Shown: in pieces, positions 49,154 through 58,151 of the stretch
How the letters are laid out: every line of letters starts with the position of its first letter
Numbering within the stretch: the stretch's first letter is position 1
Origin: an uncultured Chitinophagaceae bacterium
Lineage (GTDB): Bacteria > Bacteroidota > Bacteroidia > Chitinophagales > Chitinophagaceae
Reading direction: 5' to 3'
DNA length: 64,000 bases
Assembly (NCBI GenBank): GCA_937981995.1
Contig: CALJNC010000021.1
Coordinates: 1-64,000 of the forward strand
The notes under the pieces: generated by a model
Told to the model about the DNA's origin: nothing
The model's database searches: none
What the model saw: the letters and a program-made list of their open reading frames with translations, nothing else
Position numbers and translations under genes: made by a program

Positions 49154-50155
49154 TTATTTGATAAATACTTTTTCAAATTTTAAAATGTCATTCTTAGAAC
49201 TAATTGTAGCAATGTAATTGCCTGATAAAATTGCAGGAATACTTATTTCATTGTTAGTAATATCAGAAGAAAATACTTTGCTTCCTTTAAGATCAAATAA
49301 TGCAAATTCTAAATCAGAATTAAAGTCAACACCGCTAATTTTAATTGTTTGATCAATAAGGGTAGGGTAAATTTTAATAGTTGTAGTGTTTATACTTGTA
49401 CTAGTGCGTACAATTTTTGAATAGAATTTTTCGCCATCATTACTTACTTCTTTGATTCTGTAGTAAGTTTCATTTGAATTTTCAATATCCTTAAAGCTAT
49501 AGCTGTCGCTTCCAATGGTATAAATTGTCGTAAGTAGTTTAAAGTCATTTCCGTTAGCGCTTCTTTCGATTTCAAAATGGTTTACGTTTTCTTCTCTTTC
49601 GGTTTCAAAAGTTACCAATACATGATCAGCAAATTTTTGAGCTTTTACATTCGTAAAGTTTACAGGTAAAGCTACATTGGTTGCAGCTGCTGAATTCCAC
49701 ATGTCTCCTCCAGTGCCTGATCCATTTACTGCATTTCCCACAGCATTGAAAGTTGCGGCAGTGCCACCTGTAGCAGGTGCTGTCCATGTTAAATTAAAAG
49801 TTGCGGTATTGCTTACCATGCTTTTTCTTTTGTTGTGACCCGCACTCATATTGCCTGATTGAATGGTTACATCTGCATCAGTTGTGGTAAGCGTTCCAAT
49901 ATTTGTTTGAACCTGAAAACCGGCTTGATTATTCATGGTATTGGTTATAGTAACTGTAATTGGGTAAGCTGCACTAGGCGTATAAAAAGTTGGAAGACCA
50001 TTTACAGCAACTGTAGTAGCGGCATTTGCGCCACCGTGGCATCCGCAACTAGATGTATAGCCAGAAAAGCCTGAGCTATAGGAGGTATTCAATGCAGTAT
50101 ATGCACCCAATCCAAGTATTAATAATAATGAGGTGAGTAAAGATTTTTGTTTCAT
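49154..50155 (-). CDS. Choice-of-anchor V domain protein with T9SS tail, copy A
   Basis: A secreted protein of 333 residues: signal-like N-terminus (SLLTSLLLILGLGAYTALN), then a choice-of-anchor V domain (GLPTFYTPSAAYPITVTITN, AGFQVQTNIGTLTTTDAD, SAGHNKRKSMVSNTATFNLTWTAPA), a linker and a C-terminal T9SS sorting domain (KIYPTLIDQTIKISGVDF, LKGSKVFSSD, LSGNYIATIS). Just after the signal it has SSCGCHGG, a CxCH in place of the CxxCH found in the neighbouring copy. It is the downstream member of a tandem pair, probably a duplication. Confidence 0.88.
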   Translation of the reverse strand: MKQKSLLTSLLLILGLGAYTALNTSYSSGFSGYTSSCGCHGGANAATTVAVNGLPTFYTPSAAYPITVTITNTMNNQAGFQVQTNIGTLTTTDADVTIQSGNMSAGHNKRKSMVSNTATFNLTWTAPATGGTAATFNAVGNAVNGSGTGGDMWNSAAATNVALPVNFTNVKAQKFADHVLVTFETEREENVNHFEIERSANGNDFKLLTTIYTIGSDSYSFKDIENSNETYYRIKEVSNDGEKFYSKIVRTSTSINTTTIKIYPTLIDQTIKISGVDFNSDLEFALFDLKGSKVFSSDITNNEISIPAILSGNYIATISSKNDILKFEKVFIK

Positions 50156-50266
50156 AGTTGAGATTTTATTTCAACTAAGGTACAAACTATATTTTTAAAA
50201 AGAAATATGACTTTTAAATCCATCTCAGTAAGCGATGGATAGAAGAAAGCAACAATAGCAGATTAT

Positions 50267-51286
50267 TTATTTCATAATAACTTTCTTAATAAGTACAGAT
50301 TCCTTATTATCAATAAGTTGAATAATATAGTTTCCATGTGGAAGTTGTTTCTCAATAGAAAATATTCCATTATTTACCAAGGAGGAAACTACAGGTGCTC
50401 CAAGCATATTGTAAAGAACTGCTTTAACGTTGGTGTACTCATTTAGACCTTTGATTGTAAAAGTTTGATTGTTACTTATGGTAGGGTAAATGTTCAAATC
50501 GTTCTCTCCGGAAATTTTTGCAGAAACAATTTCAGAATAGGTTGTTTTATTATCAAGGTCAGTTTCTTTGATTCTGTAATAGTAATTAGTGTTCTTTTCA
50601 ATTTCGAAATCATTGCTTATATAATTTCCGTTGCCTTTTGGTTGTATTAATTGTATTGATTTAAAATCTGTATTTTCTTTTCTTCTTTCTATTTCAAATG
50701 ACTGAATGTTTTTTTCCTCAGCAGTTTCAAAATTTAATTGGATATGATCTTCTCTTGCAATGGCATTTACATTCACAAAAAGTACCGGTAGTGCAATATT
50801 ACTTATTGTTATAAAAGCTCCACTATCACCATTTGTATTGCCCGTGCCATTTGCGCCAATTCCTTGCGCGCCAAAATTGGCAATGGTACTGCCCGTTGCA
50901 GGTGCCGTCCACATTACGTTGAAAGTTGAAACGCCGCTTATCATTCCTTTAGGCGTATTATGTCCCGCGCTTCTGCCATCAGGGTAATTTGAAATGCCTG
51001 GATCTGAATTGGTAATAGTGCCTATGTTTGATCGTATTTGAAAACCTGCAACTAGTTTGGAGCTATTTGTAACAGTTACACTTAAGGGGTAAGATTGACC
51101 ATGCGTGTAATAGGTAGGTAAGCCATTGATAGCAATAGCAGTAGTTGGAGCACTTCCGCTATGGCATGTTACACAAGTTGTATTGGAGTAAGAGCCAAAG
51201 CCGCTACTATAGGAAGTGTTTAATACAGTATAAGAACCTAGTCCTATGATTAATAGTAAACTAGTAAGTAAAGATTTTTTTTTCAT
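50267..51286 (-). CDS. Choice-of-anchor V domain protein with T9SS tail, copy B (CxxCH)
   Basis: The 339-residue paralogue of copy A, with nearly the same signal region (SLLTSLLLIIGLGSYTVLN). It has TTCVTCHSGS, a canonical CxxCH c-type haem attachment motif, at about residues 38-42. The choice-of-anchor V domain follows (GLPTYYTHGQSYPLSVTVTN, AGFQIRSNIGTITNSD, SAGHNTPKGMISG), then a T9SS tail (NIYPTISNNQTFTIKG, MLGAPVVSSL, LPHGNYIIQL). Haem binding would fit the cytochrome-maturation genes nearby but is inferred only. A weak 7-bp hairpin (50218-50240) follows its stop. Confidence 0.88.
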   Translation of the reverse strand: MKKKSLLTSLLLIIGLGSYTVLNTSYSSGFGSYSNTTCVTCHSGSAPTTAIAINGLPTYYTHGQSYPLSVTVTNSSKLVAGFQIRSNIGTITNSDPGISNYPDGRSAGHNTPKGMISGVSTFNVMWTAPATGSTIANFGAQGIGANGTGNTNGDSGAFITISNIALPVLFVNVNAIAREDHIQLNFETAEEKNIQSFEIERRKENTDFKSIQLIQPKGNGNYISNDFEIEKNTNYYYRIKETDLDNKTTYSEIVSAKISGENDLNIYPTISNNQTFTIKGLNEYTNVKAVLYNMLGAPVVSSLVNNGIFSIEKQLPHGNYIIQLIDNKESVLIKKVIMK

Positions 51287-53009: not shown

Positions 53010-53071
53010 AAGGCTGCGAATTTACATTGTAGTTTTTTTTTATGTCTTCTTTTGACCTAAATGCTTTACAT

Positions 53072-53101
53072 TTGTATAAAAGTTAGGCTAGACTAACTTT
53101 T
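53072..53101 (+). promoter_or_regulatory. Promoter of the metal ABC operon (-33 TTG, -7 TAACTTTT)
   Basis: TTG at 53072-53074 and TAACTTTT at 53094-53101 are spaced exactly 19 bases, as in the Bacteroidota consensus; the -7 box has one mismatch (T for G at the end). The ATG at 53115 follows 13 bases later. The spacer and -7 box are covered by the palindromic operator. Confidence 0.7.
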
Positions 53102-53102
53102 A
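53077..53102 (+). promoter_or_regulatory. 26-bp near-perfect palindrome, predicted DtxR/MntR-type operator
   Basis: Ten-base arms TAAAAGTTAG and CTAACTTTTA are perfectly inverted around a six-base centre GCTAGA, which itself holds CTAG; only one of 13 pairs fails. TTAGGCTA...CTAA resembles the DtxR/IdeR/MntR box pattern. It lies across the promoter spacer and -7 box of an operon that encodes its own DtxR-like domain, so binding would block RNA polymerase. Confidence 0.8.
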
Positions 53103-53114
53103 CGAATAGAAATT

Positions 53115-54038
53115 ATGAAACAAATATTAGTATTCCTTCTTTGTGCGACAATTTTACTTTGCAGTTGTGACCAAGGTGGAAGTAAGGTCGACGGAGATAA
53201 GTTATATATAGTAACCACTACGCAAATGATAGCAGATGCTGTACGGAATATTGCTGGAGATAAAGCTGAAGTAATTAGTCTGATGGGTCCTGGTGTAGAT
53301 CCGCATTACTATAAAGCCACACAAGGTGATTTAGAAAAACTGACCAAAGCGGATATTATTTTTTATAATGGTTTGCATCTTGAAGGTAAAATGCAAGATG
53401 TGTTTGAAAAATTTGCAAAGAAAAAGTCTGTGGTAGCTGTTACAAAAGATATTCCTAAAGAGGAATTAATTATATCAAGCGACCAAGGGGAAGAAACTAT
53501 TTATGATCCACATGTTTGGCATAGTGTTCTTCTTTGGAAACAAACATTATCAGTAATCTCTAAGACGCTTGCTAAAAAAGATAAAGTAAACTCTAATTCT
53601 TATGAATTGAATTCTTCTACATTATTTGAAGAAATGAAAATGCTGGATATTAATACGAAAGCTACTATCTCGCAGATACCTCAAGAGCAAAGACTTTTAA
53701 TAACCTCGCATGACGCCTTTAATTATTACGGTAAAACCTACGAAATAGAAGTACAAGGCTTACAAGGGATATCTACAGTTAGCGAAATTGGTATTAAAGA
53801 CATTACCGAAATGGTAGACTTAATTATTAAAAGAAAAGTAAAAGCCGTATTTGTAGAATCTTCGGTAAATGAAAGAAACTTAAAAGCTGTAATAGAAGGC
53901 TGTAAAAAGAAAGGATGGGAAGTAAAAATAGGAGGCACTTTATTTTCCGATGCTATGGGAGATGATGATACACCTGAAGGAACTTATGCAGGTATGATAA
54001 AACATAATACAGCTTCCATCGTAAATGCACTTAAGTAG
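53115..54038 (+). CDS. Metal ABC transporter substrate-binding lipoprotein (TroA/ZnuA/YtgA type)
   Basis: The lipid-anchored metal-binding protein of an ABC importer, 307 residues. The lipobox gives lipidated Cys18 (LLCSC). The cluster A-I ligand set is intact: His64 (GVDPHYY), His133 (DPHVWHS), His199 (TSHDAFNYYG) and Asp279 (LFSDAMGD), the His/His/His/Asp set of TroA-like proteins. There is no His-rich loop of the kind seen in dedicated zinc binders. The sequence alone cannot separate Mn, Zn and Fe; the downstream repressor fusion favours Mn or Fe. It is the first gene of the operon, with the operator directly upstream. Confidence 0.92.
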   Translation: MKQILVFLLCATILLCSCDQGGSKVDGDKLYIVTTTQMIADAVRNIAGDKAEVISLMGPGVDPHYYKATQGDLEKLTKADIIFYNGLHLEGKMQDVFEKFAKKKSVVAVTKDIPKEELIISSDQGEETIYDPHVWHSVLLWKQTLSVISKTLAKKDKVNSNSYELNSSTLFEEMKMLDINTKATISQIPQEQRLLITSHDAFNYYGKTYEIEVQGLQGISTVSEIGIKDITEMVDLIIKRKVKAVFVESSVNERNLKAVIEGCKKKGWEVKIGGTLFSDAMGDDDTPEGTYAGMIKHNTASIVNALK

Positions 54039-54166: not shown

Positions 54167-54952
54167 ATGATCGTTCAAGTAGAAAATCCAGTCCTAGAAG
54201 TTCATGATCTTACAGTGAGTTATGATAAAAATCCAGTACTCTGGAATGTCGATTTTAGTATACCCAAAGGAAAATTGGTTGGTATCATTGGCCCCAATGG
54301 AGCAGGTAAATCTACTATGCTAAAATCCGTAATGGGATTAGTAGATAAGCAAAGTGGTTATGTGAAAGTTTTTAATAAAGATTTAGATGAAGTACGAGAG
54401 CAAATTAGTTATGTACCACAGCGCGAATCAGTAGATTGGGATTTTCCGGCAAGTGTATTAGATGTAGTGCTTATGGGGCGTTATGGCAGGAGAGGTTTGT
54501 TTAAAAGAATAACCAAAGAAGATAAGGCAATTGCAATGGCTAGCTTGGAAAAAGTAAATATGCAGGACTATGCCAAGCGTCAAATTGCACAACTTTCAGG
54601 TGGGCAACAACAGCGTGTTTTTATTGCTCGTTCATTAGCGCAGCAGGCCAATTTATATTTAATGGATGAGCCTTTTGCGGGTGTAGATGCTTCGGCGGAG
54701 AGTTCAATTTTAAATCTCCTACAAGAAATGCGCGCAGAAGAAAAAACAATTATGGTGGTGCACCATGATTTACAATCAGCGTATGAATATTTTGATTGGG
54801 TGATATTACTTAATATGCGCTTAGTTGCTTCTGGTCCCAAAGAGGAAGTTTTTACACCAGAATTATTACAAGAAACCTACGGAGGAAAATTAACCTTGCT
54901 TGATAGTCTTTCTAATTTTATAAGACAAAAAGAATTTCCAATTAAAGGATAA
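54167..54952 (+). CDS. Metal ABC transporter ATP-binding protein (TroB/YtgB type)
   Basis: The ATPase of the importer, 261 residues. Walker A GPNGAGKST (about residues 43-51), Q-loop YVPQRESVDWDFP with the family-typical tryptophan, signature LSGGQQQRVFIARSL, Walker B LYLMDEPFAGVD and H-loop VVHHDL are all intact. The VDWDFP stretch is characteristic of Mn/Zn/Fe chelate-family ATPases. The last base of its stop is the first base of the next gene's ATG (TAATG), so translation is coupled to the permease-repressor fusion. Confidence 0.95.
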   Translation: MIVQVENPVLEVHDLTVSYDKNPVLWNVDFSIPKGKLVGIIGPNGAGKSTMLKSVMGLVDKQSGYVKVFNKDLDEVREQISYVPQRESVDWDFPASVLDVVLMGRYGRRGLFKRITKEDKAIAMASLEKVNMQDYAKRQIAQLSGGQQQRVFIARSLAQQANLYLMDEPFAGVDASAESSILNLLQEMRAEEKTIMVVHHDLQSAYEYFDWVILLNMRLVASGPKEEVFTPELLQETYGGKLTLLDSLSNFIRQKEFPIKG

Positions 54953-56256
54953 TGAGAGAGCTCCTAGAATTCTTGAGTTTATCCAATGCCAACGTTCGAT
55001 ACGTTGTACTAGGTGTTATGCTTTTAGGAGCGAGTACGGCCGTTGTTGGTACGTTTACTTTTCTTAGAAAAAAATCTTTGGTGGGAGATGCTGTAGCGCA
55101 CTCCGTTTTGCCAGGTATTTGTTTAGCGTTTATTTTCTCCCAGGTTAGGCATCCTTTGGTGTTGCTTTCGGGTGCATTTATAAGTGGTTGGTTAAGTATT
55201 TTAAGTATTGATTTTATAACAAAACAATCGCGCATAAAAGCCGATGCTGCTATTGCTATTGTACTTACTGTTTTCTTTGGGGTGGGTATTATGTTATTGA
55301 GTTATATTCAGTCTACAGGCAATGCAGCACAATCTGGCATTGATCATTTTTTGTTTGGTCAAGCTGCTGCTTTAGTAGGCAATGATGTAATCATGCTTGC
55401 TATTGTTTGTGCAGTTTTGGTGGTGGTAGTTTGGTTATTATTTAAGGAGTTTTCTATTCTAAGTTTTGATGCTGACTATGCACAGTCTCTTGGTTTGCCA
55501 GTAAGAAGTATTGAATTTGTTTTATCTACTTTAACCGTAATTGCCATTGCAGTAGGAATCCAAGCTGTGGGTGTAGTACTTATGGCAGCTATGCTTATAA
55601 CGCCCGCTGCGGCTGCTAGGTATTGGACCAATAGATTGTCTGTCATGCTTTTACTGGCAGCAATGTTTGGAGCTTTGTCCGGTTTTTTTGGAAGTTATAT
55701 TTCTTATTCAGCACCCAAAATGCCTACAGGGCCTTGGGTCATTATTGCAGTTACATTCATTGCTTTTATATCAATGACGTTTGCTCCTGAGCGTGGTTTC
55801 TTTTTTAAATGGTTGAGTAAAAAAAGAAAGGTAAATACAACAATGGATGAAAATATTTTGAAAATATTTTTTCACCTCGGAGAGAAAGAAGGAGATGCCT
55901 TGACATCAAGAAAAATTGCACAATTGCAAGCGCGTAGATATTTTGAAGAATCAAAAATGCAAGCAAGTTTAAAACGATTGTGCCGTGATGGTAAAGTAGA
56001 AGAAGATGAGCATGGTTGGAAGCTTACAAAAGTTGGAGTGATAGAATCAAAGCGTATTGCCAAGTTGCATAGATTGTGGGAGATGTATATGAGTAAATTC
56101 CTTAAAATTCCTGCAGATCATGTGCATGAAGGAGCCGAGAGTTTGGAGCATTTTTTTACACCTGAGTTAGAAGAAATGCTTGAGCAAGAACTTGATTTCC
56201 CTGAAACGGACCCACACGATAAACCAATCCCTTACACTAAAACTTCAGTCTCATGA
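54952..56256 (+). CDS. Metal ABC permease fused to a DtxR/MntR-type repressor (YtgCR-like)
   Basis: A two-part protein of 434 residues. Residues 1-285 are an ABC-3 family permease with about eight helices (KKSLVGDAVAHSVLPGICLAF, DADYAQSLGLPVRSIEF, GVVLMAAMLITPAAAARYW). After a basic linker (about 286-297), residues 298-434 form a complete DtxR/MntR-like unit: winged helix (about 300-362) and metal/dimerisation domain with His373, Glu377, His392, Glu396, Glu399 and His400. Glu at the position of DtxR Cys102 is as in Mn-type MntR. The layout equals chlamydial YtgCR, whose repressor half is released by cleavage. An in-frame ATG at 55843 begins exactly at the repressor domain. It overlaps the next permease gene by 4 bases (ATGA). 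Confidence 0.9.
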   Translation: MRELLEFLSLSNANVRYVVLGVMLLGASTAVVGTFTFLRKKSLVGDAVAHSVLPGICLAFIFSQVRHPLVLLSGAFISGWLSILSIDFITKQSRIKADAAIAIVLTVFFGVGIMLLSYIQSTGNAAQSGIDHFLFGQAAALVGNDVIMLAIVCAVLVVVVWLLFKEFSILSFDADYAQSLGLPVRSIEFVLSTLTVIAIAVGIQAVGVVLMAAMLITPAAAARYWTNRLSVMLLLAAMFGALSGFFGSYISYSAPKMPTGPWVIIAVTFIAFISMTFAPERGFFFKWLSKKRKVNTTMDENILKIFFHLGEKEGDALTSRKIAQLQARRYFEESKMQASLKRLCRDGKVEEDEHGWKLTKVGVIESKRIAKLHRLWEMYMSKFLKIPADHVHEGAESLEHFFTPELEEMLEQELDFPETDPHDKPIPYTKTSVS

Positions 56257-57128
56257 GTTATTCATTCTGGATAATATTGACGGGTGCGTTGGTAGCAAGT
56301 TCGTGCGCATTGCTCGGCTGTTTTTTAGTACTACGCAAAATGTCTATGATAGGAGATGCTATTTCTCATGCAGTATTGCCAGGCATAGTTATTGCTTTTT
56401 TAATTAGCGGATCGCGTAGTTCATTGCCTATGCTTATAGGTGCAGCTTTAGTAGGAGTGTTCACTACCTTTTTGATTGAGTTTATAAGTAAAAAGGCTAA
56501 GATGCAAAACGACGCGGCTATTGGTTTAGTTTTTACATTTCTATTTGCTGTAGGAATTATTATGCTCACATTATTTGCCGATAAAATGGATCTTGATGCC
56601 GATTGTGTATTGCATGGTGAGATTTTGTTTATTCCATTGGATATTTTGACTACAGGTACATTTGTAGATATTGTACCCCGCAAAATTTGGATTTTATTTA
56701 TCGTATTTATAATAGTAATCATTGCGTTACGTATAGGGTACAAAGGGTTTTTAATAACCACTTTTGATCCTTCGTATGCGGTTTCGGTAGGTATATCTGC
56801 TGTGTTATGGCATTATGTTTTAATGACCTTAGTATCCTTGGTAACGGTAGTTTCATTTGAATCGGTAGGAGCAATTTTAGTGGTTGCTTTTTTGGTTGTG
56901 CCAGCAGCCTCAGCTTATTTGCTGACGGATAATTTGGTGCGCATGCTTTTAATTGCGGTTGGTGTTGGAGTGTTATCTTCTATATTAGGATACTTTTTAG
57001 CTAAGTGGTTGGATAGCTCAATCCCTGGTTCTATGACAGCCACGCTGGGTATATTGTTTTTGATTTCGTTTTTGCTAGCGCCAAAGTATGGTTTGCTGCC
57101 AAGGAAGTTACTACGTAAGAAAGCTTAG
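56253..57128 (+). CDS. Second metal ABC transporter permease (TroD/YtgD type)
   Basis: An ABC-3 family permease of 291 residues without any fused domain. About eight helices are visible; family motifs include LRKMSMIGDAISHAVLPGIVIAFL, AKMQNDAAIGLVFTFLFAVGII, DADCVLHGEILF, DPSYAVSVGISAVLWHYVLM and VVAFLVVPAASAYLLTD. It pairs with the permease half of the fusion to form the membrane channel. Its start overlaps the fusion gene and its stop overlaps the convergent aquaporin gene by 4 bases (TTAG). Confidence 0.94.
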   Translation: MSYSFWIILTGALVASSCALLGCFLVLRKMSMIGDAISHAVLPGIVIAFLISGSRSSLPMLIGAALVGVFTTFLIEFISKKAKMQNDAAIGLVFTFLFAVGIIMLTLFADKMDLDADCVLHGEILFIPLDILTTGTFVDIVPRKIWILFIVFIIVIIALRIGYKGFLITTFDPSYAVSVGISAVLWHYVLMTLVSLVTVVSFESVGAILVVAFLVVPAASAYLLTDNLVRMLLIAVGVGVLSSILGYFLAKWLDSSIPGSMTATLGILFLISFLLAPKYGLLPRKLLRKKA

Positions 57129-57812: not shown

Positions 57813-58151
57813 TTAATACATTAATTGCTTCTTAGACTTGTTTCTCCATCCAGCCTGAGATTCGTATTTTACAAAGAATATTTTAAGATCGGCTTGTGAC
57901 TCATAGTCTACAAAGTAGATTTTCTTGTTAGCCTGAGATTCGTATTTTACGAAGAACCAATCACCATTATTTCCTCTAGCGTTAGATTCATATTTCTGTT
58001 TGTGTACTTTTAAATCTGCTTGAGATTCATATTTAACTACATACACTTTTACATCGGCCTGGGATTGATATTTTACGGAATATACCTTTTGTGCGTTCGC
58101 GCTAAAACAAAACAAAAATGAAAGAGTAAGAAGAATAACAAGACGTTTCAT
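57813..58151 (-). CDS. Secreted DUF6150 protein made of KYESQA repeats
   Basis: A 112-residue exported protein: signal peptide of 20-21 residues (LLTLSFLFCFSANAQ) followed almost entirely by tandem ~13-residue repeats, six copies of K-(I/V)-(Y/F)-x-V-(K/D)-Y-(E/Q)-S-(Q/N)-A. The third repeat has an insertion (RGNNGDW). The alternating pattern predicts a beta-strand per repeat, perhaps a short solenoid. The family is known only as DUF6150; function unknown. It is 40 bases upstream of the aquaporin gene on the same strand. Confidence 0.88.
   Translation of the reverse strand: MKRLVILLTLSFLFCFSANAQKVYSVKYQSQADVKVYVVKYESQADLKVHKQKYESNARGNNGDWFFVKYESQANKKIYFVDYESQADLKIFFVKYESQAGWRNKSKKQLMY

Follow-up and report, generated by a model that had tools for sequence, protein, structure and literature searches.

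The closest described relative of the system considered here is YtgCR (CT069/CTL0325), the permease-repressor fusion encoded by the ytgABCD operon of Chlamydia trachomatis. Its repressor part, YtgR, has been reported as the only iron-dependent regulator identified in Chlamydia (PMC6504234), and how a repressor that is built into a membrane permease can work has been a question for this protein. Transporters are known to be controlled through small regulatory domains fused to them; MetNI and ModABC exemplify trans-inhibition (PMC10710835). The DNA studied here (the window) is a stretch of 64,000 nucleotides from an uncultured Chitinophagaceae bacterium of the phylum Bacteroidota (assembly GCA_937981995.1, contig CALJNC010000021.1, positions 1 to 64,000 of the forward strand). 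At 54952-56256 it carries, within an operon for a metal transporter of the ATP-binding cassette (ABC) type, a gene for a comparable fusion of an ABC-3 permease with a domain of DtxR/MntR origin. We suggest, with a confidence that barely exceeds an even chance, that a free MntR represses transcription of such operons, while the fused DtxR domain would sense metal in the cytoplasm and act on the transporter itself, most likely through trans-inhibition. The surprise lies less in the occurrence of a YtgCR-like fusion in Bacteroidota than in the impression, given by the family as a whole, of a pump fitted with a metal sensor and not of a tethered repressor.

The fusion gene is a single uninterrupted frame on the forward strand, with an ATG start, no internal stop and 434 residues, and is divided as follows:

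54952..56256, + strand: permease-sensor fusion protein of 434 amino acids, a single open reading frame; 75% identity (residues 1-430) to the protein of a congener
54952..55806, + strand: ABC-3 permease part, residues 1-285; PF00950 at residues 15-277 (E 1e-65), match to the manganese ABC permease 7kyp in the PDB (E 1.7e-36)
55807..55842, + strand: short basic linker past the last transmembrane helix, residues 286-297, read from the sequence
55843..56025, + strand: decayed winged-helix part, residues 298-358, with the recognition sequence lost; PF01325 absent at E 0.1, alignment with free regulators, scores of hidden Markov models (HMMs)
56026..56232, + strand: metal-binding and dimerisation domain, residues 359-427, with H373, E377, H392, E396, E399, H400, D420 and H422; PF02742 (Fe_dep_repr_C, E 3.7e-19), conserved columns

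With a PF00950 score of 222 bits against a curated cut-off of 20.1, the protein belongs to the ABC-3 (MntB/ZnuB/TroC) permeases, and the relatives of residues ~299-428 in the PDB are SloR, ScaR and other MntR/DtxR proteins. The first-pass annotation of this DNA, made from its letters alone, had described an ABC-3 permease that continues in frame into a DtxR-type metal domain with six ligands, and Pfam bears this out: ABC-3 spans residues 15-277, a DtxR-type domain, PF02742 at 359-427, was found within residues 298-434, and the six named ligands (H373, E377, H392, E396, E399, H400) are all present, five of them invariant and E396 nearly so among 35 Bacteroidota fusions. The same annotation had spoken of a full DtxR/MntR repressor, a description that has to be given up: PF02742 and the ligand set of these repressors are there, but the DNA-binding domain PF01325 is undetected in the fusion even at E 0.1, and the Pfam scan found no FeoA domain in this protein. 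Modelled alone and without alignment input, the C-terminal domain attained a mean predicted local distance difference test (pLDDT) value of 57.7, which is too poor to tell whether the helix-turn-helix persists, and Foldseek placed MntR DR2539, SloR and ScaR in its top ranks; the full-length fusion modelled in the same way was unusable (pLDDT 49.4). That a sequencing or assembly error, or a frameshift, has joined two separate genes is vanishingly improbable, since the frame is continuous and full-length homologues recur across many independent assemblies, which already refute such an artefact.

Full fusions occur sporadically among the 59 genomes nearby (the window's own included); within the family, two of 36 genomes carry one, namely the window's own and that of a congener. 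An even sample of the phylum (395 genomes) yielded 27 full fusions: 17 of class A (including the window's own), four of class D, and six of the more distant class C. The classes A to D were assigned by match extent and similarity and were kept fixed for all later comparisons, and the 24 class A loci studied were drawn from the near-relative set and the phylum sample. G049, a genome that is 57% complete and has a fusion-type permease fragment at a contig end, was left out of these counts.

PF02742 was detected in all 35 Bacteroidota fusions (24 of class A, four of class D, seven of class C) and in all 39 chlamydial fusions scanned, and PF01325, at a threshold of E 0.1, in two of the 35 (best E 0.038) and in none of the 39; both domains are present in 32 of 32 free regulators. 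HMMs built from the free regulators of Bacteroidota gave the same picture. For the winged helix, the median scores were 106 bits for the free proteins (cross-validated), 13 for class A, 13 for class C, 2 for class D and 7 for the chlamydial set, and the lowest scores in classes C and D and in the chlamydial set were at the level of shuffled sequences; for the metal part, the corresponding values were 107 (free), 68 (A), 76 (C), 73 (D) and 71 bits (chlamydial). A comparison matched by genome was possible for 23 of the 24 class A genomes, each of which holds both proteins (G216 was left out, its free gene not being in the set). The ratio of winged-helix to metal-part identity was 0.51 in the fused and 0.79 in the free proteins, with a jackknife difference between the ratios of mean identities of -0.26 (standard error 0.04) and lower values for the fused proteins in 239 of 253 pairs; the metal part, with an identity of 0.633 when fused and 0.610 when free, is at least as well conserved in the fusion. 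The recognition motif [SA][VA][ST]xM is present in 32/32 free regulators, 1/24 class A, 0/4 class D, 2/7 class C and 0/39 chlamydial proteins, and the metal-ligand pattern in 24/24 (A), 4/4 (D), 7/7 (C), 38/39 (chlamydial, where the one miss reflects a difference in spacing) and 31/32 (free) sequences. Across the 35 aligned Bacteroidota fusions, H373, E377, H392, E399, H400 and H422 are invariant and E396 and D420 nearly so, and in the alignment of the chlamydial fusions all metal ligands are invariant. These four tests (Pfam, HMMs, matched genomes and motif) concur in pointing to a DtxR-derived domain that would be a sensor without a DNA reader.

An intact regulator is encoded elsewhere in the window's genome. 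It is a protein of 219 amino acids on another contig (G000:C9:271-930) with PF01325, PF02742 and FeoA, and together with the operon's fusion it accounts for the two PF02742 matches of this genome; the fusion is thus not what supplies the cell's DtxR-type regulator. Free DtxR-type genes exist in 24 of 24 class A genomes (the window's own and 23 of 23 others), upstream on the same strand in 15, adjacent in other orientation in four, and elsewhere in five, the window's genome among them. The usual class A operon hence reads free regulator, binding protein, ATPase, fusion and permease. Directly upstream of the first gene of the window's operon lies the following element:

53077..53102, no strand assigned: perfect DtxR/MntR-type palindrome, TAAAAGTTAG-GCTAGA-CTAACTTTTA, directly upstream of the gene for the binding protein

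We take this palindrome to resemble a DtxR/IdeR box. Its score was reached in none of 300 mononucleotide shuffles of the same upstream region, and the congener has a similar palindrome at the equivalent place. Ahead of the first gene, 22 of 24 class A operons and one of 29 chlamydial operons (29 of the 39 retained loci were scanned) carry the core TTAG-N6-CTAA; with 300 mononucleotide shuffles per region as a control, the chance value lay between 0 and 0.043 in the 22 positive regions. In one internal region scanned (L087, before the binding protein) there was no core, and among the Chlamydiota it is L278 that has the full core, while L305 shows the two half-sites with a spacing of 4 between them. 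The free regulator would be the obvious reader of the operon palindrome. A search of the window's whole genome returned 61 matches to the core against 49 for a backward control, so that most of these matches are to be ascribed to chance; among 18 loci inspected from them, the core lies outside frames of >=70 amino acids in two, the operon's own and L320. The latter copy (L320:1501-1514; G000:C14:3017) is a second intergenic TTAG-N6-CTAA and is situated between divergent genes for an MgtC-like membrane protein and an outer-membrane-like protein (both named by eye); it is a possible further target of MntR.

Chlamydial genomes were gathered by a scan with a Chlamydiales 16S pattern. Among 20 that were sampled, 16 contain the fusion (in 13 as one match that reaches residue 427 or beyond, in three as two pieces within one frame), and PF02742 is present in 136 of 151 genomes, its single or best match lying in a frame of 313-493 amino acids; these frames are of fusion length, save for the shortest (G540), which lies at a contig end. 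In 123 of the 136 genomes the match in a fusion-type frame is the only one (one frame is cut by a contig end), and in the other 13 a second, weaker match falls into a short frame of 140-182 amino acids. The homology and the shared gene order with ytgABCD that had been proposed for the window's operon stand, as the complete order with the fusion is present in 37 of 40 chlamydial loci; in two of the remaining three no binding protein was detected, and one lacks the DtxR domain. This last locus (L309, in G535) is a ytg-like operon with a first permease of 332 amino acids, and it was dropped from the chlamydial set, which thus comprises 39 of the 40 loci. Seven chlamydial fusions (L300-L305, L310) have lost the core of the helix-turn-helix by deletion and kept all metal ligands; the distance from helix 1 to the metal domain is 48-57 residues in the five in which the anchor was found, versus 68-72 in free regulators, and the fusion is the sole PF02742 match in each of these genomes. 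Since the loci of these proteins were picked partly for split matches, seven of 39 is not a rate.

Two further arrangements among Bacteroidota bear on the history of the fusion. In class B (18 loci: L049-L061, L064, L067, L103-L105) both permeases have a short winged-helix extension, and PF02742 was found in none of the 15 first permeases scanned. The extension of the first permease contains two conserved His residues (18/18), and that of the second three His and one Glu (18/18), with a further His in 15 of 18; the two extensions are possibly another cytoplasmic metal sensor, split across two subunits. In class C (L062, L063, L065, L066, L068, L076, L077) the DtxR domain sits on the other permease type, and its DNA-binding features are lost as in class A (Pfam, HMM). 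FeoA is matched in four of the 35 Bacteroidota fusions, in agreement with four long class C proteins of 494-497 amino acids, and the class C loci examined have a single permease gene each at the locus; their transporters may hence carry two sensors. Beside the class C fusion of L077, a 592-amino-acid frame (L077:3205-4983) seemingly fuses a binding protein with an ATPase. A tree of the permeases, with support by the Shimodaira-Hasegawa-like approximate likelihood ratio test (SH-aLRT) only and with one mislabelled row (p2A_L075 duplicates A_L075), places classes A and D, the chlamydial fusions and B1 together (100), opposite a group made up of class C, B2 and the second permeases (100), and makes the chlamydial fusions sister to class B1 (96). 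In a tree of the DtxR part, which has few columns and whose bootstrap was not settled, the free regulators group together (98/99), and the distance to them is smaller for class C (99/93) than for class A or the chlamydial fusions; F_L058, in which the motif falls outside the regular expression, was excluded from this tree and from the measurement of helix spacing. From the permease type of class C and from the tree positions, class C appears, most simply, to represent a second, independent fusion event, and B1 has probably lost its metal domain.

These relationships lead us to the tentative proposal, which we hold at somewhat less than an even chance, that the permease-DtxR fusions, including YtgCR, are at root metal-gated importers: the metal sensor of a transcription factor would have been taken up on at least two occasions to serve as a brake on an ABC metal importer from the cytoplasmic side and would mostly have lost its DNA reader, and the DNA binding seen in Chlamydiaceae would have been retained or regained in that lineage and would not be the general function. 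In the window's bacterium, a separate, intact MntR-like protein would control transcription through the palindrome at 53077-53102, and the DtxR-derived domain on the first permease would no longer be a DNA-binding repressor but would be kept for its metal site. The linker offers a clue to its location. Across class A, the 23-residue linker segment has a mean net charge of +5.1, which under the positive-inside rule would place the C-terminal domain in the cytoplasm. There, presumably occupied by metal, the domain would most likely signal to the transporter how much metal the cell contains and slow import once it is abundant (trans-inhibition). The first-pass annotation suggested that the transporter may monitor its own substrate from the cytoplasmic face, which agrees with our interpretation; the domain and its ligands are present, and the basic linker points to this location. 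A sensor on the transporter best explains why the metal ligands have long been kept without the DNA reader, be it beside an intact repressor or in the sole DtxR-type protein of a genome.

Several observations weigh against this interpretation. Some winged-helix-like signal survives in class A (median 13 bits; minimum 6.1 versus at most 1.6 for shuffled controls), if without the recognition sequence. The net charge of the winged helix, which might have betrayed a loss of DNA binding, went the opposite way, with +4.9 in the fused and +4.0 in the free proteins and +6.9 in the chlamydial ones, so that the positive charge is retained and the measure was rejected. Upstream of the window genome's own free regulator gene there is no palindrome core, and the link between regulator and box is therefore one of family resemblance only in this genome; of eight regions before free regulator genes sited apart from the operon's first gene (elsewhere or in other orientation), two have the full core (L073, L074). 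In MetNI and ModC the sensors form pairs and belong to the ATPase subunit; a class A transporter would have just a single one, attached to one of two permeases. Furthermore, the winged helix looks constrained in the Chlamydiaceae-like sequences (L271-L287, n=17, defined by a small genome and high similarity), with a ratio of winged-helix to metal-part identity of 0.83, compared with 0.45 in 15 other undeleted chlamydial sequences, 0.53 in class A and 0.72 in free regulators. Thirteen of these 17 sequences contain the WWW motif, which marks the C. trachomatis-like ones and has been described for YtgCR (PMC7755916). This constraint fits the published reports that C. trachomatis YtgR binds DNA and is released from YtgC (PMC5599777, PMC6504234, PMC7755916), and it limits the sensor interpretation, in that one lineage has a constrained, if unusual, reader.

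The same reports speak for transferring the model of YtgCR to the window's protein, namely that the C-terminal domain is released by cleavage and, when loaded with metal, represses its own operon. The fusion is homologous, the gene order is that of ytgABCD, and the residual winged-helix signal and basic charge of class A would suit such a function. The first-pass annotation had taken the strategy to be the same, a conclusion that we do not share: the DNA-reading part is unrecognisable and poorly conserved among class A genomes, every one of which has a free DtxR-type gene, and 22 of the 24 operons are preceded by a DtxR-type palindrome. We therefore regard a cleaved repressor as unlikely. Slightly less probable still is a trap at the membrane, in which the fused domain would form mixed dimers with free MntR that do not bind DNA and would thereby couple repression to the state of the transporter. 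PF02742 is a dimerisation as well as a metal-binding domain, and a partner would be at hand in all 24 class A genomes; such a trap is not general, however, as the 123 chlamydial genomes in which the fusion-type match stands alone still keep the domain, and three class D genomes (G258, G368, G274) likewise have the fusion only.

A domain at the cytoplasmic exit that merely accepts metal from the channel and hands it on, leaving the rate of transport unaffected, is also rather doubtful, although we rate it a little above the two preceding explanations. It would accommodate the conservation of ligands without DNA reading and is compatible with one domain per transporter, but an acceptor or buffer would seem to need neither the DtxR fold with its winged-helix remnant nor the full set of regulatory ligands. 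We know of no precedent for a metal acceptor domain in this position, and our literature search was not aimed at this idea. The sensor that acts on the transporter remains our preferred interpretation, and the open-access literature, mostly judged without full text, yielded no description of permease-DtxR fusions in Bacteroidota, nor of trans-inhibition by a DtxR-type domain.

The product of the operon would be a heteromeric ABC importer whose substrate is a first-row transition metal, be it Mn, Fe or Zn. Mn2+ had been inferred from the Glu at the position of DtxR Cys102, but this inference fails because the same Glu is present in 39 of 39 chlamydial sequences, although YtgR has been reported to depend on Fe2+ or Zn2+ (PMC5599777). 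The ligand set H-H-H-D of the binding protein was found in 24 of 24 class A and in 38 of 38 chlamydial proteins aligned. Both the Glu and the HHHD site were rejected as metal discriminators, as this operon shares them with its chlamydial counterparts. The remaining genes of the operon, whose order is binding protein, ATPase, permease-fusion and permease, are:

53115..54038, + strand: ZnuA/TroA-like periplasmic metal-binding protein; PF01297 (E 4.7e-74), best PDB match TroA (E 3.7e-72), ligands H64, H133, H199 and D279 by alignment
54167..54952, + strand: ABC ATPase; PF00005 (E 7.9e-32), NCBIfam model of a manganese/iron ABC ATP-binding protein (E 7.8e-69, under that model's cut-off)
56253..57128, + strand: second ABC-3 permease, without a C-terminal domain; PF00950 (E 6.4e-53), start overlapping the end of the fusion gene

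The two ABC-3 matches of the window's genome both lie within this operon. A promoter and terminator scan found nothing above the shuffled level, and a possible Bacteroidota-type -7 element, TACATTTG at 53067-53074, spotted by eye against the consensus, is not claimed, as an upstream element with good spacing is absent. Elsewhere in the window, two tandem paralogous proteins with signal-like starts are encoded at 49154-51286 (- strand); inspection by eye shows CVTCH, a haem-like CxxCH motif, in one of them and CGCH in its partner. A DUF6150 protein with repeated KYESQAD-like units is encoded at 57813-58151 (- strand).

Set beside the known systems, the window's protein is closest to YtgCR. An ABC-3 permease with a C-terminal PF02742 domain, in an operon of binding protein, ATPase, fusion and permease, is common to both, as are the metal ligands, including the Glu at the DtxR Cys102 position, and the permease falls into the same tree group as the chlamydial fusions (SH-aLRT 100). 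The two differ in that the window's bacterium has a free, intact regulator as well as a DtxR-type palindrome, whereas the chlamydial fusion is usually the sole PF02742 protein and the palindrome core is found in one of 29 loci, and in that the winged helix is constrained in the Chlamydiaceae-like proteins and decayed in the window's. In the Bacteroidota relatives the two roles are divided: DNA falls to a free MntR-like protein, for which there is a matching palindrome, and the metal site to the fused domain. As non-chlamydial proteins they allow a role purely on the transport side to be tested, and we predict that such a role may hold in Chlamydiota outside the Chlamydiaceae. With free MntR, DtxR, SloR and ScaR, the fused domain has the metal-binding and dimerisation domain in common, in sequence and in fold relation (MntR DR2539, SloR, ScaR), but unlike them it is tethered to the membrane and is without PF01325, recognition sequence and FeoA. 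The troABCDR operon of Treponema and FB2-mntR of Porphyromonas gingivalis likewise combine a metal transporter operon with its own DtxR-type regulator; in the accessible portions of these reports a fused sensor is unmentioned (PMC2628430, PMC4805248). MetNI and ModABC, finally, carry a ligand-binding domain as an addition to one of their subunits, facing the cytoplasm (PMC10710835), where the domain of the fusion would lie as well. The domain described here, a putative inhibitor of transport, differs from theirs in sitting on the permease and in deriving from a transcription factor; if confirmed, a sensor of transcription-factor origin on a permease would join the known ways of gating ABC importers.

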